DNA of 64,000 bases, from the IMG/VR virus record IMGVR_UViG_3300028746_000015, positions 21,921 to 85,920 of that record; one strand, given 5' to 3'. Both the position numbers and the translations under genes were made by a program. The notes below the pieces were generated by a model. That model made no database searches. It was not told the DNA's origin and was given only the letters and a program-made list of their open reading frames with translations. This DNA comes from a virus. Positions 2,375-61,467 of the stretch are shown piece after piece (position 1 is the stretch's first letter; each line of letters begins with the position of its first letter).

Positions 2375-3130
2375 ATGGACTATAGTGTTAGGCGCATAGA
2401 CAAAAAAACTGCCAACAAGATCGTGAGTGCTAAACATTACTCACATAGGTTGGGAATTTTCTGGGAAGGCTTTGGACTATACGCGCCTAATTTAATAGGT
2501 GTAGTCTGTTATGGACAACCTTCTGCTCCCATACAGAAGCATGCATTTAAAAATAGAGATTTTAGGTTATATGAGCTTACTAGACTTGTAGTAGATTCTG
2601 GTACAAAAAATGGTGCAAGCTACCTAATATCCCATAGTTTACAAATGCTTACACAACAGCCATCTGCTGTAATAAGTTATGCAGATTCCGCGCAAGGACA
2701 TGCTGGAATTGTGTACCAAGCTACTAATTGGAAGTATACCGGGGCTGTAAAGGCTCATGACTCTTTCTATAAGGTTGGCGAGGAGGTACTCCACCCTATG
2801 ACAGTTAGAGATCGCTTCGGTATAAATGATCCCTCAAGGTGGGCTAAAGAAAACGGCATTGAGGTTGTTAAACCTCAGCCAAAGCATAGATATTTTTACT
2901 TTGTTGGTAAAAAACAAGAGCAGAAAAGAATGAGATCATTACTGTCCTATCCAATCATAGATACTTATCCTAAACTGGATAAAAAGACTTACGATGATGG
3001 GTCTTCTTGTATGAGCTATATGGAGCAATCAGATGAGCGAAGCACTGGCAGCACTGAAGTCAGCAGTGAAGACACCACAAGTCCCTTCGACGGGGAAATC
3101 GACGGGCAGTACATCGGCGACTTCAACTAA
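2375..3130 (+). CDS. Mom-like DNA modification protein
   Basis: This 251-residue protein resembles phage Mu Mom, a GNAT-fold enzyme that converts adenine in DNA to N6-carbamoylmethyladenine to evade restriction. The recognisable block runs RLYELTRLVV (65-73), ASYLISHSLQMLT (81-93), then VISYADSAQGHAGIVYQATNWKY (99-121), a pattern I associate with Mom proteins. It starts at ATG 2375 after an AGAGG site. Its DNA is clearly more AT-rich than its neighbours, with many AAA, TTA and ATA codons, which suggests recent acquisition. The last 33 codons overlap recA and are low-complexity Ser/Thr, so the ancestral C-terminus may have been lost. The family match is by eye. Confidence 0.75.
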   Translation: MDYSVRRIDKKTANKIVSAKHYSHRLGIFWEGFGLYAPNLIGVVCYGQPSAPIQKHAFKNRDFRLYELTRLVVDSGTKNGASYLISHSLQMLTQQPSAVISYADSAQGHAGIVYQATNWKYTGAVKAHDSFYKVGEEVLHPMTVRDRFGINDPSRWAKENGIEVVKPQPKHRYFYFVGKKQEQKRMRSLLSYPIIDTYPKLDKKTYDDGSSCMSYMEQSDERSTGSTEVSSEDTTSPFDGEIDGQYIGDFN

Positions 3131-8358: not shown

Positions 8359-9990
8359 CTAAGACCCACAGCTTCCTCCGCCAGTCAGTGAGCAAATGTC
8401 CATCTGCTCCATGAATATTTCGTCCTTATGTTTCATAGCTGTCTTGTACGATACCACACTGAATGGTTGACCGGACCTGCACCCATCTGGATAACAAGTA
8501 AATCCTCTTAGCTTGGGAAGATATTTCATAAGCATATCTCCAAAACCTTTAACAAGGCTCTCGTTGTTGTACTCTGTGCCCCATGCCGGTAAATTTAGTG
8601 TAGAGCTAATACCGTGGTCTACCCATCTTTGTAGCCACACCTGGAAAGCCACACGTCGCTCTGGTGTCTGTGCCAGCGTGTAGGCGTCCTCAATAGAGGC
8701 AGGATTAACTCCAGCGTCTATCAGCCTTTTAGCTGTGGGGTCCAAAACGTACTGGTACACCCATTCTCCACCTTTAAGGTATCTTCGCTTGTAGGCAACA
8801 CAGAATAGGGGCTCAAGTCCGCCAGTAGTTTCTGCTACAATAGCGATACTTCCTGTAGGGGCAATAGCTCTGGTCTTAATTGGTCTGGATATTCCAAGAG
8901 CATCGGCAGCGACGTTAGCAATGTCAGTAGATGTTTCGTACACATCTAGATAGGTTGCCAGTTCGTCACTAGGGCCATACGGTAGGCCTTTCTTAAGTAA
9001 CCACTCGTGCAGGCCCATTAATCCAAGTCCTAGTCGTCTGTTACGAGACCTGACCTCTGCCACCTTAGCGTAAGGAATATCGCTGTAGACTGTCCCTGCT
9101 AGAAGGAACTCTGTTGCATATTTAGTGACATATGCCATTTCTTCTAGGCTTGTAATCTGCGCCATGTTAATTGAAGCCAAGTTGCAAATATCAGAATCAT
9201 CGCGGCTGGTAATCTCTGTGCAGGCGTTGCGTAGGTCTTCGCCCTCGTTCTCGCCACAGTCAACAGAGAATCCAGGCTCGGCAGTCTCTAGCATGTGTCT
9301 AACGGTATCCCAGTAGACCCTCTGCGCTACCTCGTGCTTTGGATGATGCGTATTGTTGTACGCAATAAAGAACTCTGTATCGAGACCTACTGATATGTTC
9401 GTACCGTCCATAGGAGCTGGAAAGTTAAAGTCTTGCGCCTTAAGTGCTTTGACTTCCGGCGACCAATCTTTCATCTTGATGAACTTCAGTACATCGGGGT
9501 GAGACCATTTGAGTCCGGCCCAGATTGCGGAGCGGCGTGATCCGCCTTGCATAATACCGTTGCCACAACGATTGGTCATTTCCATAAGGGCCAAAGGTCC
9601 GGTAGCAAAGCCTCCTGTGCGTTTAATGATAGAGCCTTCTTCACGGACAAGGCTATACTCGATACCGATACCTGCTCCGGTCATAAGGGCCATGGCGCAC
9701 TTCTGAAGGTGATCTGCCCATCCCTCGCGCGAGTCTTCCACGCGCATGAGAAGGCAATTCTGAACCTGATGGAAGTCTCTACCTGCGGCGTATAAATACC
9801 GACCACCTGGAAGGAACTTTCGTTCGTAGATAATTTTGGCTGTAATCTGAATAGTTTCTTCAGATGCTCCCACAGCGGAGAGGACATTTCGTGCTACTCG
9901 ATGGGCTATGTCGTACCATGTTTCTTTGTTGCCGTCTAATTTTATCTGAGCATACTTTTGGAGCATGATCGTTTCAGCGAATACACTCAT
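8359..9990 (-). CDS. nrdJ: Adenosylcobalamin-dependent (class II) ribonucleotide reductase
   Basis: Reduces ribonucleotides to deoxyribonucleotides, feeding phage DNA synthesis. At 543 residues it is a compact single-chain enzyme. The sequence shows FLPGGRYL, the first redox cysteine in QNCLLM (C79), the catalytic C-x-E in ACTEI (C257, E259), the partner cysteine in DICNLASIN (C269), APTGSIA and a cysteine-bearing tail (ICSLTGGGSCGS). No small-subunit gene is nearby, and the insertion-poor layout fits class II (B12) rather than class I. I place the start at ATG 9990; an upstream in-frame start at 10038 would overlap the next gene. An HNH remnant follows the stop. Confidence 0.85.
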   Translation of the reverse strand: MSVFAETIMLQKYAQIKLDGNKETWYDIAHRVARNVLSAVGASEETIQITAKIIYERKFLPGGRYLYAAGRDFHQVQNCLLMRVEDSREGWADHLQKCAMALMTGAGIGIEYSLVREEGSIIKRTGGFATGPLALMEMTNRCGNGIMQGGSRRSAIWAGLKWSHPDVLKFIKMKDWSPEVKALKAQDFNFPAPMDGTNISVGLDTEFFIAYNNTHHPKHEVAQRVYWDTVRHMLETAEPGFSVDCGENEGEDLRNACTEITSRDDSDICNLASINMAQITSLEEMAYVTKYATEFLLAGTVYSDIPYAKVAEVRSRNRRLGLGLMGLHEWLLKKGLPYGPSDELATYLDVYETSTDIANVAADALGISRPIKTRAIAPTGSIAIVAETTGGLEPLFCVAYKRRYLKGGEWVYQYVLDPTAKRLIDAGVNPASIEDAYTLAQTPERRVAFQVWLQRWVDHGISSTLNLPAWGTEYNNESLVKGFGDMLMKYLPKLRGFTCYPDGCRSGQPFSVVSYKTAMKHKDEIFMEQMDICSLTGGGSCGS

Positions 9991-10009: not shown

Positions 10010-10762
10010 TTACAGTACAGCGTGTAATACAAATACAACAGTTACTCCAGCGCCTACGCCTACGCCATACAAGAACGCCTTAAACTTGCCTTTTCGCGCC
10101 TGGGCCTTCACAGTGGAGATTTCTGCCTTGCATGTCTTTTCAGCTTCGACCTGTTGAGTCTGAAGCCCTGTCACCTGGGTATGAAGTCCGGTGATTAGAT
10201 CGTCTGCCGATGCGATCTCCTTATCCTTATTGTCAGAAGTTTGCTGCAAATCACTGACATTGGCCTGGAGGGTAGGTATCTGTTCAAGTGCCTGCGTGGT
10301 TTGCAAAGCCCCGACAGGTGTAACCGTGATACCGGCAGTTGTCGCAGTGATATCTGTGGGTTTGATGTTAGCCAGTTGTGCCCAGCGGTTGCCGAGGTCC
10401 GGCATGGGGAGGGTCGCGTCCGACTTTACCTGCTGCTGAAGGACAACTGTGCGTGTCTGGATGCTTGCAGCAAGCTGGGCATTCTGCGCGCCAAGCTGAG
10501 CCACGAGCTGTTGGTACTGCTGACCCTGAGCTTGGACCTGGGCAAGGATCGCCGCGTTCTGAGCTTTCGTATCGTTGAGCTGCTGAACGGCAGCATCCGA
10601 GACGGCCTTGTCGTGCGTGGCTTGGTTGTCGAGAATCTTATTACCGACGAAGACAAGCGCGACGATTGCCAGGACGACGATGATAAGTCGCTCATGCTGT
10701 ACAAGCCAACTCTTCGTATTTGTTACATCTGTCTTCACAGAGGTTTCAATTGCTGAGGTCAT
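10010..10762 (-). CDS. Membrane protein with periplasmic coiled coil, spanin-like
   Basis: A 250-residue protein with an N-terminal membrane helix (LIIVVLAIVALVFVGN, about 26-41). A long Gln/Ala-rich coiled-coil region follows, then a basic stretch (KGKFKAF) and a C-terminal hydrophobic helix (LYGVGVGAGVTVVFVLHAVL). The first helix plus coiled coil resembles inner-membrane spanins, but the second helix is not typical and no outer-membrane partner is seen. A membrane-tethering role is the safest reading. Confidence 0.5.
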   Translation of the reverse strand: MTSAIETSVKTDVTNTKSWLVQHERLIIVVLAIVALVFVGNKILDNQATHDKAVSDAAVQQLNDTKAQNAAILAQVQAQGQQYQQLVAQLGAQNAQLAASIQTRTVVLQQQVKSDATLPMPDLGNRWAQLANIKPTDITATTAGITVTPVGALQTTQALEQIPTLQANVSDLQQTSDNKDKEIASADDLITGLHTQVTGLQTQQVEAEKTCKAEISTVKAQARKGKFKAFLYGVGVGAGVTVVFVLHAVL

Positions 10763-11309
10763 GCCGTCTCTTTTCTATCTCGGCGACTAGTTCTTCTATC
10801 GTGAAGTCTTCTATTCGTGCGAGTTTTCTTTGGTTCAGTCTTTGCTCTTTACGGGTGGACCACTTACAATTAGTCGGCTCGTAGTTTCCATTCACTTCGA
10901 TACGGTCGATGGTATGAAGCTTAGTAGGTTTTTGACCCATATCCGCTAGAAAATTATCAAAGACTAACCATCTTTCACATATTGTGATACCCCTGCCACC
11001 GTAGTGATGATAGGCTCGATTTTTAGGATCGAGGCAACGGCCTTTCATCGCGCACCAGCTATTGTACTCGCTGCTGTGATCTTTGGCTCTTGCATGACCG
11101 TGACGTAACTGGTTTGGTTGTTCTCTAAAAAGACACCCGCAGCTTCTCACATCGCCGGAGATCAGATTACTTGATGTTACGTTCTTATAGGAACCACAAT
11201 CGCACAGACATCTTAGGCCACACTTACCGTTAGGCATAGTGGCCTTTTCAATTACGATCAGTCTACTGAACTTCCTACCTATCAGATCGATAGGTACACC
11301 TCTTGGCAT
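10746..11309 (-). CDS. HNH homing endonuclease with AP2-like N-terminus
   Basis: A 187-residue free-standing homing endonuclease. The N-terminal half has the small DNA-binding module CDCGSYKNVTSSNLISGDVRSCGC. The C-terminal half has the catalytic HNH-type block SEYNSWCAMKGRC, YGGRGITICERW, DMGQKP, IDRIEVNGNYEP and NCKWSTRKEQRLN. ATG 11309 has AGGAGA upstream. It lies in its own transcription slot after a terminator and its end overlaps the next gene by 17 bases, as expected for an inserted mobile gene. Confidence 0.88.
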   Translation of the reverse strand: MPRGVPIDLIGRKFSRLIVIEKATMPNGKCGLRCLCDCGSYKNVTSSNLISGDVRSCGCLFREQPNQLRHGHARAKDHSSEYNSWCAMKGRCLDPKNRAYHHYGGRGITICERWLVFDNFLADMGQKPTKLHTIDRIEVNGNYEPTNCKWSTRKEQRLNQRKLARIEDFTIEELVAEIEKRRHDLSN

Positions 11310-11324
11310 CTCTTCTCCTGAGAC

Positions 11325-11356
11325 TAGAAAACGCCCCTCACGTGTTTAGTGAGGGG
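11325..11356 (-). terminator. Rho-independent terminator
   Basis: CCCCTCAC and GTGAGGGG form a perfect 8-bp stem with a 7-base loop, followed by CGTTTTCT on the minus strand. The stop of the upstream gene lies inside the stem. Confidence 0.8.
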
Positions 11357-11538
11357 AGGTAGGTAGTCGCATTCATTTGGCCGTACGTCGGTGCAACGGG
11401 TGCGGCGGGTGCCTGATAGTAAAACGTGCCCGTATAGTGTCCAGAGACTTCCGTAAGGAACTCCATGTTCCATCTATTGTTCGGGTCGTTAGCTAGATCA
11501 TTTAGGAACAATTCAAGTTCCATAGCTGAACCAAACAT
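11338..11538 (-). CDS. Small hypothetical protein
   Basis: The preferred start is ATG 11538, with AAGG 6 bases upstream and just after the previous stop; the frame extends to GTG 11577. The 66-residue product begins MFGSAMELELFLNDLAND, likely helical, then becomes Ala/Pro-rich. It ends within a terminator. Function unknown. Confidence 0.55.
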   Translation of the reverse strand: MFGSAMELELFLNDLANDPNNRWNMEFLTEVSGHYTGTFYYQAPAAPVAPTYGQMNATTYLPSLNT

Positions 11539-56743: not shown

Positions 56744-56772
56744 TTGACAAAGGAAAGTAACTTAGGTATGAT
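56744..56772 (+). promoter_or_regulatory. Promoter, near-leaderless
   Basis: TTGACA (56744-56749), 17 bp, TATGAT (56767-56772). The -10 ends 10 bp before ATG 56783. Confidence 0.75.
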
Positions 56773-57225: not shown

Positions 57226-57312
57226 CACACGTAGAAGGTTGCTTGTTATTGTCGGCGGACGCGAGGGCAGAACTCGCCACCTCCACCATAAATTGATCTT
57301 GATTCGATTATG

Positions 57313-57767
57313 GGGGTGACTCAGTTTCGACGGCGGCTGATAGTGGGTACAACTTGCGTGTCGGGAATTTGTTAGCTTCGCCCGTAAAAAGAAACTCGCA
57401 AAAAGAAATGTCACGAACAATGACGAAATGGCTTCGATCCGCAACATGGTGATGTTCCCCTCGGCTTCGGCTGGGCACGACATCGACACCAAGGTGCGAG
57501 TAGCCGATCTGGTTGCAGCCTAAGCTGCTAAGGTAGTCCCTGCCTCACAGGGACACACATTGAAGTCTAGACCCGCCTCCTAAAAAGAGCAATCTCCGGT
57601 GCCATCGTGCTCGGAAGTAATGGCGCACTCCATCCCTAAGCTGAGACCCAGTAAGGGCGCTGAGAAGGTGTGCGGCGGTAGTCGGGCATTTGCAGCAATG
57701 GGAACGGCTGGCCAGTTAGTTCGGGGCACCCAAGGGGCGGGTTCAGGCGGGTTTCGCCGCTCCACCA
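57313..57767 (+). ncRNA. ssrA: Phage tmRNA (one-piece)
   Basis: tmRNA rescues stalled ribosomes by acting as tRNA and mRNA. The 5' end GGGGTGACTCAGTTTCGACGG and 3' end CGCTCCACCA pair (GGGGTG/CGCTCC) into an acceptor stem with encoded CCA. CCCGTAAAAAG...CTCGCAAAAAG and the upstream A-rich segment align by eye with E. coli ssrA around the resume point. The tag frame ends VADLVAA with stop TAA (57521-57523) in the loop of hairpin GCAGC-CTAA-GCTGC, as P5 requires. If resume is ACG 57413, the tag is 36 residues, unusually long. GTCCCTG/CAGGGAC follows as a pseudoknot-type stem. The T arm is not canonical (GGCGGGTT is duplicated). Confidence 0.85.
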
Positions 57768-57802
57768 AATTGAAACAAATACGTAACAAGAATCGAGAAA
57801 CT

Positions 57803-60257: not shown

Positions 60258-60412
60258 TGAACTCAGGCGGTGGCGCTAGGACTTGTACAGTGAAGTGTGC
60301 AAAATGTTTGAAACCTGTTGTCTGGAATATAGACATAGGTCAATGGGAGCACGTCGACAACGCGTCGAAGTGCAGATACAAAGGCGTGCCAATAGCAGGA
60401 GAGGCAAGATAA
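60257..60412 (+). CDS. Small zinc-ribbon-like protein
   Basis: A 51-residue frame coupled by TGATGA to the membrane protein. CTVKCAKCLKPVVW and a later SKCRY give a C-x3-C-x2-C and C pattern that can bind zinc. Function unknown. Confidence 0.55.
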   Translation: MNSGGGARTCTVKCAKCLKPVVWNIDIGQWEHVDNASKCRYKGVPIAGEAR

Positions 60413-60414
60413 GC

Positions 60415-61467
60415 ATGAGCGAGAGCGTAGTAGTCAAGATCAAATTTGGCAGTCACCTTTACGGCACGAGCACACCCTGGTCCGATACCGATTACAAGTC
60501 TGTGTACCTGCCATCTGCCTCCGACATCCTGCTTGGCCGGGTGAAGAAGACCATGCGTGAGGGACGTCGCGATAAGGCCGAGGGTGAGAAGAACCTGCCT
60601 ACCGACATCGACAACGAAGCCTATAGCCTAGACTACTTTTTCGAGCTGCTTGCTTCCGGTCAGACTGTGGCTATCGACATGCTCTTCGCACCGGAACCCG
60701 AGATCACCTCGCCTACCTGGAAGATGATCCAGCGGAATCGTGACAAACTTATCACGAAGAAGGCTAGCGTGTTCCTGGGCTACTGCCGTCAGCAGGCGAA
60801 CAAGTATGGGATTAAAGGGAGCCGAGTTGCGGCGGCTCGTGCGGCGGCATCGTTCTTCAAGCAGGCCTATGAGACGTGTGGGGCAACCTTCAAAGTTGAA
60901 GGTATGTCAGATTATATCCCAGGCTTAGTCAGAATCCATCCAGATCACATGGCGATCACTCATTACGACGATCCGAAAGGCGTGCGACCGAGCGAGGTGT
61001 ACTTCGAGTGCTGCAATCGGAAAGTCCCGTTCAAAGCTTCGGTCAAGTTGGCTGCTGAAATCTTCACCAAGATATTCGAGAACTACGGAGCGCGTGCTCT
61101 CCAGGCTGAGTCGAATGAAGGTGTAGACTGGAAGGCTCTGTCCCACGCCGTCCGCGTCGGTCACGAAGCCCTCGAACTCATGTCCACCGGCAAGGTCACG
61201 TTCCCGCTGCACAACGCGGCGCACGTCCTAGAGATCAAGCAGGGAAAACTTCCCTACGAACAGGTCTCGAAAGAGATCGAGGACTTGCTCGACACGGTGG
61301 AGGCTGCGGAAAAGATTTCTGTGCTCCGCGATGAGCCGGACTACGAATGGATTGACAGATTCGTGAAACGAGAGCATAGTTACATCGTGCGACATGCATC
61401 CTACGCCGAAATAGAGGGCAGCAACAAAGGGAAGACTGACGTAGTATTCTCTGGCCCGATCTGCTAA
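60415..61467 (+). CDS. Nucleotidyltransferase-superfamily protein
   Basis: From ATG 60415 (GGAGAGG upstream), 350 residues. The N-terminus has the Pol-beta-type signature KFGSHLYGTSTPWSDTDYKSVYLP (GS at 12-13, D24, D26), as in phage-encoded predicted nucleotidyltransferases. The helical remainder includes FLGYCRQQANKYGIKGSR and LSHAVRVGHEALELM, also typical of that phage family. Transfer of a nucleotide to protein, RNA or an antibiotic-like substrate is possible; the target is unknown. Confidence 0.8.
   Translation: MSESVVVKIKFGSHLYGTSTPWSDTDYKSVYLPSASDILLGRVKKTMREGRRDKAEGEKNLPTDIDNEAYSLDYFFELLASGQTVAIDMLFAPEPEITSPTWKMIQRNRDKLITKKASVFLGYCRQQANKYGIKGSRVAAARAAASFFKQAYETCGATFKVEGMSDYIPGLVRIHPDHMAITHYDDPKGVRPSEVYFECCNRKVPFKASVKLAAEIFTKIFENYGARALQAESNEGVDWKALSHAVRVGHEALELMSTGKVTFPLHNAAHVLEIKQGKLPYEQVSKEIEDLLDTVEAAEKISVLRDEPDYEWIDRFVKREHSYIVRHASYAEIEGSNKGKTDVVFSGPIC

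Follow-up and report, generated by a model that had tools for sequence, protein, structure and literature searches.

A permuted, two-piece tmRNA gene with a long tag in a phage related to cultured Acidobacteriota phages

Permuted tmRNA genes, in which the acceptor piece precedes the coding piece, are already known from phages. By 2021, 53 two-piece tmRNAs had been counted in phage genomes, with marine or aquatic samples contributing 50, and those of the Melnitz type are related to the tmRNAs of Alphaproteobacteria (PMC9004378), while a 2025 tmRNA database holds 79 phage tmRNAs of all forms and has 10 residues as its commonest tag length (PMC11915505). Here we describe such a gene in a window of 64,000 bases, namely bases 21,921-85,920 of an 85,920-base IMG/VR virus contig. 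It shares phage-encoded, permuted form with the tmRNAs of Methylophilales phage Melnitz and the pelagimyophages (PMC9004378), although those are aquatic phages and the window phage is from soil. With the alphaproteobacterial two-piece tmRNA (RF01849) it has in common both the permuted form and a T-loop of the GGCRGWA type, but RF01849 matches the core at 57256-57332 only, and the bacterial tags are shorter (10-25 aa). The one-piece tmRNA of Acidobacteriota (RF00023) presumably has the same function, in a different gene form and with tags of nine residues. The tmRNAs of Bxz1-group mycobacteriophages, to which the initial annotation had likened the locus, are not known to be permuted. They are carried by phages as here but belong to another host phylum (PMC4131195), the window phage being related instead to Acidobacteriota phages.

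The locus, as judged from its sequence, is a permuted tmRNA gene at about 57227-57554. A one-piece phage tmRNA with an unusually long tag had originally been proposed at 57313-57767; the phage tmRNA and its long tag were confirmed, whereas the one-piece form and its boundaries were not. The check by covariance model was passed, with RF04321 (tmRNA_permuted) matching over its full length at 57227-57523 with 67.4 bits against a cut-off of 47, and RF01849 (alpha_tmRNA) matching the tRNA-like core alone (57256-57332, model positions 87-168 of 355) with 57.9 bits against a cut-off of 50. The one-piece model RF00023 gave no match at E<=10 anywhere on the contig; this silence, together with the full-model match to RF04321, is why we consider the gene permuted. 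ARAGORN, also suggested as a check, called two tRNAs in the window and missed the tmRNA gene. Neither ARAGORN nor Rfam found a complete tRNA upstream of the gene, and no Rfam family or riboswitch was found adjoining it. The acceptor piece with its CCA (57227-57288) lies upstream of the coding piece, which starts at 57312, and the two strands of the acceptor stem, GGGGGUG and CACCUCC, form seven of seven pairs. The parts of the locus, with a promoter-like site and one rejected part, are as follows.

57227-57288, + strand: acceptor piece, the 3' half of the tRNA-like domain (from RF04321, RF01849, stem pairing and sequence)
57227-57241, + strand: 5' strand of P2, within the acceptor piece
57261-57277, + strand: T stem-loop GCGAG-GGCAGAA-CTCGC, with five of five T-stem pairs
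57278-57284, + strand: acceptor 3' strand CACCUCC, followed by A (57285) and CCA (57286-57288)
57289-57311, + strand: intervening segment of 23 nt between CCA and G1, placed by position; presumably cut out of the precursor, by analogy with known two-piece tmRNAs
57312-57554, + strand: coding piece, its 3' end at about 57554 (from the RF04321 match and comparison with relatives)
57312-57318, + strand: acceptor 5' strand GGGGGUG, within the coding piece
57325-57333, + strand: conserved TTTCGACGG, within the coding piece
57350-57361, + strand: 3' strand of P2, within the coding piece
57410-57523, + strand: tag frame, with resume codon GUC (57410-57412), 37 codons and stop codon UAA (57521-57523), from frame comparison and alignment
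57515-57528, + strand: stop-codon hairpin GCAGC-CUAA-GCUGC, read from the sequence
57536-57554, + strand: terminal hairpin GUCCCUG-CCUCA-CAGGGAC, read from the sequences
56744-56772, + strand: promoter-like TTGACA-17-TATGAT upstream of the gene; weak, since chance alone would yield one such site over the region scanned
57736-57767, + strand: rejected part, the earlier T-arm and CCA end (five of seven pairs, no RF00023 match, CTCCACCA frequent)

Several elements reported before are thus present in the sequence: the tmRNA 5' end (GGGGGTGA...TTTCGACGG, from 57312), the resume region and the stop codon enclosed in a hairpin. In position, the terminal hairpin corresponds to the 3' hairpin seen in the permuted tmRNAs of relatives, such as GGGAGCCUCACAAGGGCUCCC in G005. 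The coding piece as a whole does not fold unusually (z -0.31).

Sequence comparison relates the contig to Tunturi_3, a podovirus that infects Tunturiibacter psychrotolerans of the Acidobacteriota (PMC11924767). Gene order is conserved between the two, with identities of 90% in the major head protein, 71% in the portal, 55% in the terminase and 49% in the polymerase, and it is from such relatives that we infer the host of the window phage. A second IMG/VR contig (L026) carries an identical copy, 100% over 14.6 kb. No relatives of the phage polymerase were found in GTDB genomes, and no similar DNA in phage GenBank records. In Tunturi_3 (PP885686) a permuted tmRNA, missing from the annotation, lies between the genes for the polymerase and the phosphoesterase, and tmRNA is absent from the text of the paper describing the Tunturi phages (PMC11924767). 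Tunturi_3 shares with the window its gene neighbourhood, its Val resume codon and both strands of P2, ACACACGTAGAAGGTTG and CAACTTGCGTGT, which are identical in the two phages; a scan of IMG/VR for this P2 pattern matched only the identical phage L026. Both Tunturi_3 and Tunturi_4 (PP885687) resemble the window in permuted form, a 7/7 acceptor stem, the G3-U70 pair and long tags (29 and 33 aa, respectively), but differ from it in having a TTCGA-type T-loop and in encoding a small GGQ release-factor-like protein. Two further observations concern the Tunturi_3 locus (L119): just downstream of the tmRNA, at 9558-9615 on the + strand, lies a partial RF00005 match (34.8 bits, model positions 6-65) without a complete acceptor stem, and some 750 bases upstream of the phosphoesterase gene (10712-11466) hold no annotated genes and no Rfam match.

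Among 24 polymerase-related records, eight passed the RF04321 cut-off and none that of RF00023. The eight are Tunturi_3, Tunturi_4 (in both of which the gene is unannotated) and six metagenomic records; as the gene is the same in G002 and G004, there are eight distinct genes with that of the window. The upstream acceptor piece is present in the tmRNA genes of all relatives, and the acceptor stem forms seven of seven pairs in all eight distinct genes, with compensatory, two-sided changes at positions 4-6 and a G-U pair at position 3 (G3-U70) throughout. When 3' strands were shuffled among the phages, the true score was equalled in 6 of 40,320 permutations, which is the expected number because three phages have identical strands. 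The T stem has all five pairs in seven of the eight, the window among them, and fails in G009 in the fixed register used. For the outer P2 helix the figure was 36 of 5,040 permutations, which is weaker evidence because the 5-mers were chosen by eye and one phage was left out; an automatic search for the longest P2 helix gave inconsistent helices, hence the choice by eye.

The tag encoded in the window is VTNNDEMASIRNMVMFPSASAGHDIDTKVRVADLVAA, 37 residues from GUC 57410 to UAA 57521, ending in -VAA, an end of the kind typical of tmRNA degradation tags. A 36-codon open frame from ACG 57413 to TAA 57521-57523 had been noticed before and does exist. Its proposed Thr resume codon gives way, on alignment to relatives that bear GCN at this place, to GUC 57410-57412 (Val) as the more likely one, hence the length of 37 aa; Val is found in both the window and Tunturi_3. 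Across the eight phage genes the tag frame contains no stop in 213 codons, whereas the two alternative frames contain 6 and 13 (composition-based chance of a stop-free tag frame about 2e-4). The Tunturi_3 tag ends in ...KVRVAQFATMLAA, and tags in the remaining genes are of 26, 36, 27, 14 and 11 aa. The window tag is about four times longer than the nine-residue tags of Acidobacteriota, and ARAGORN-read tags in 28 alphaproteobacterial genomes span 10-25 residues with a median of 12. Our pattern scan of IMG/VR picked out 116 stretches resembling permuted tmRNAs of the alphaproteobacterial kind, a few of them apparently chance matches. ARAGORN-read tags in other permuted viral contigs range from 9 to 29 residues, long ones of 22-29 aa being among them.

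Could such a long tag have a job of its own during infection, directing proteins to a particular protease or host factor rather than serving as a loosely constrained degradation tag? A length of 26-37 aa in the window and five of the seven other distinct genes would fit this, as would the long tags, of up to 29 aa, that permuted tmRNAs of other phages encode, and the nine-residue tags of the presumed hosts; but two relatives have ordinary short tags, and the tags of the closest relatives are not significantly alike (P 0.08-0.95), so they give no sign of any use for the additional residues. We accordingly regard this functional reading as unlikely. The broader idea, that phages of bacteria with one-piece tmRNAs keep a two-piece tmRNA of their own, differing in form from that of the host, and use its extended tag to send stalled proteins to a fate specific to the phage, strikes us as similarly doubtful. 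The long tag is most simply explained by weak constraint on its length. Homology among the tags of the relatives was also set aside, and the KVRVA shared with the Tunturi_3 tag may be a chance resemblance; derivation from a phage protein was not convincing, the best six-frame match in the window having an E-value of 0.038.

While most relatives have TTCGA in the T-loop, that of the window, GGCAGAA (57266-57272), is of the alphaproteobacterial tmRNA type, and for this reason an alphaproteobacterial source, or recombination, is possible. The same T-loop, the RF01849 match and an RF04321 score that is low beside the 115-164 bits of bacterial genes could also be read as signs of an ssrA relic that is decaying or no longer functions and may have been acquired from an alphaproteobacterium. 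The acceptor and T stems are nevertheless intact, the tag frame is open with a proper end, and both the place of the gene and its P2 strands are conserved in Tunturi_3, which makes a relic very improbable.

The permuted form also has to be set against the tmRNAs of the presumed hosts, whose gene form was assessed on samples of genomes. All ten Acidobacteriota genomes tested directly have a one-piece tmRNA with a nine-residue tag; that of Edaphobacter (Tunturiibacter) lichenicola M8UP30, for example, encodes AEPQFALAA. Of 297 Acidobacteriota genomes, 9 gave an RF04321 score above the cut-off, and native permuted tmRNAs were rejected there as all nine matches overlap a one-piece tmRNA and are false positives; RF04321 alone is therefore no proof of a permuted gene. 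In eight of the nine, tRNA-Asp and tRNA-Val genes lie just upstream, and in one there is a tandem tmRNA copy. At loci L309, L312-L314, L316 and L317, where RF04321 is over its cut-off, tRNA-Asp directly precedes the one-piece tmRNA; the tandem case, L311 (G179 C13 201907-202671, - strand), consists of two one-piece tmRNA-like copies in one Acidobacteriota genome. The window differs from these false positives, with neither a complete tRNA upstream nor a one-piece tmRNA, and on this comparison its gene form mismatches that of the presumed host.

A one-piece tmRNA at 57313-57767 with an unrelated tRNA-like piece upstream, which could draw on CTCCACCA at 57760-57767, the G+C-rich arm before it and the ease with which the permuted model is fooled by a tRNA ahead of a one-piece gene, can practically be dismissed, given that its downstream CCGCUCC forms only five of seven pairs with GGGGGUG compared with seven for the true acceptor 3' half upstream (57278-57288), that RF00023 is silent and no complete tRNA lies upstream, and that all relatives have the upstream acceptor piece. 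The 3' end formerly placed at 57760-57767 is thus abandoned, and the downstream CTCCACCA is weak evidence because the + strand of the window contains eight copies of it. The GGCGGGTT duplication, described earlier as a duplicated T-arm, falls outside the gene in a stretch without unusual folding (z 0.27). A separate structured RNA at 57558-57802 was likewise considered and rejected (folding z 0.27, no significant match in Tunturi_3).

Taken as a whole, the locus is very probably an ssrA gene in permuted form, carried by a Tunturi_3-like phage, that would act in ribosome rescue during infection. Gene form, pairing and tag frame are supported by sequence, while processing, charging, rescue and degradation are pictured by analogy with known tmRNAs. 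The precursor would probably be cleaved both at its CCA end and at G1, most likely with host RNase P serving the phage tmRNA, and the acceptor and coding RNAs would stay joined via the acceptor stem and P2. Host AlaRS would charge the molecule through the G3-U70 wobble, and SmpB, for which no gene was found in the phages and which a relative of the presumed host encodes, would have to come from the host and carry it to ribosomes that have stalled on broken mRNA. There, translation would resume at GUC 57410 and add the 37-residue tag, the ribosome would be freed at UAA 57521, and the tagged protein would be degraded through its -VAA end. Our best guess at the gain for the phage is that it recovers ribosomes stalled on mRNAs that defence nucleases or normal turnover have cut in the infected cell.

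Other genes of these phages touch on RNA and translation, in keeping with this reading. An RNA-repair nucleotidyltransferase of the RlaP family (window 60283-61467, + strand; PF10127, 51 bits) suggests an RNA-repair set in the window phage. Small GGQ-motif proteins of 113-116 codons, encoded in Tunturi_4 (PP885687.1 43946-44293, - strand) and Tunturi_3 (PP885686.1 82469-82807, - strand), resemble RF1 and PrfH, scoring below the cut-offs of those families. In Tunturi_4 only 4 bp separate the GGQ gene from the tmRNA, and the two may form a phage ribosome-rescue pair; the window contig has no such GGQ gene. A Mom-family DNA modification protein is also encoded in the window (2375-3130, + strand; PF25680, E 3.2e-37).

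Two-piece phage tmRNAs are not new in themselves; what appears to be new is the phage family, the mismatch with the host gene form and the length of the tag, a limited search of open papers having turned up no permuted tmRNA in Acidobacteriota phages and no phage tags this long. For annotation, ARAGORN misses several of these phage permuted genes, and RF04321 used alone sets a trap, falsely reporting a permuted gene when a one-piece tmRNA stands immediately behind a tRNA. For phage biology, our findings extend permuted tmRNA to a phage family related to cultured phages of Acidobacteriota, bacteria whose own tmRNA is one-piece in every genome closely examined. As Tunturi_3 and Tunturi_4 are in culture together with their hosts, both phage ribosome rescue and the role of tag length are directly testable.
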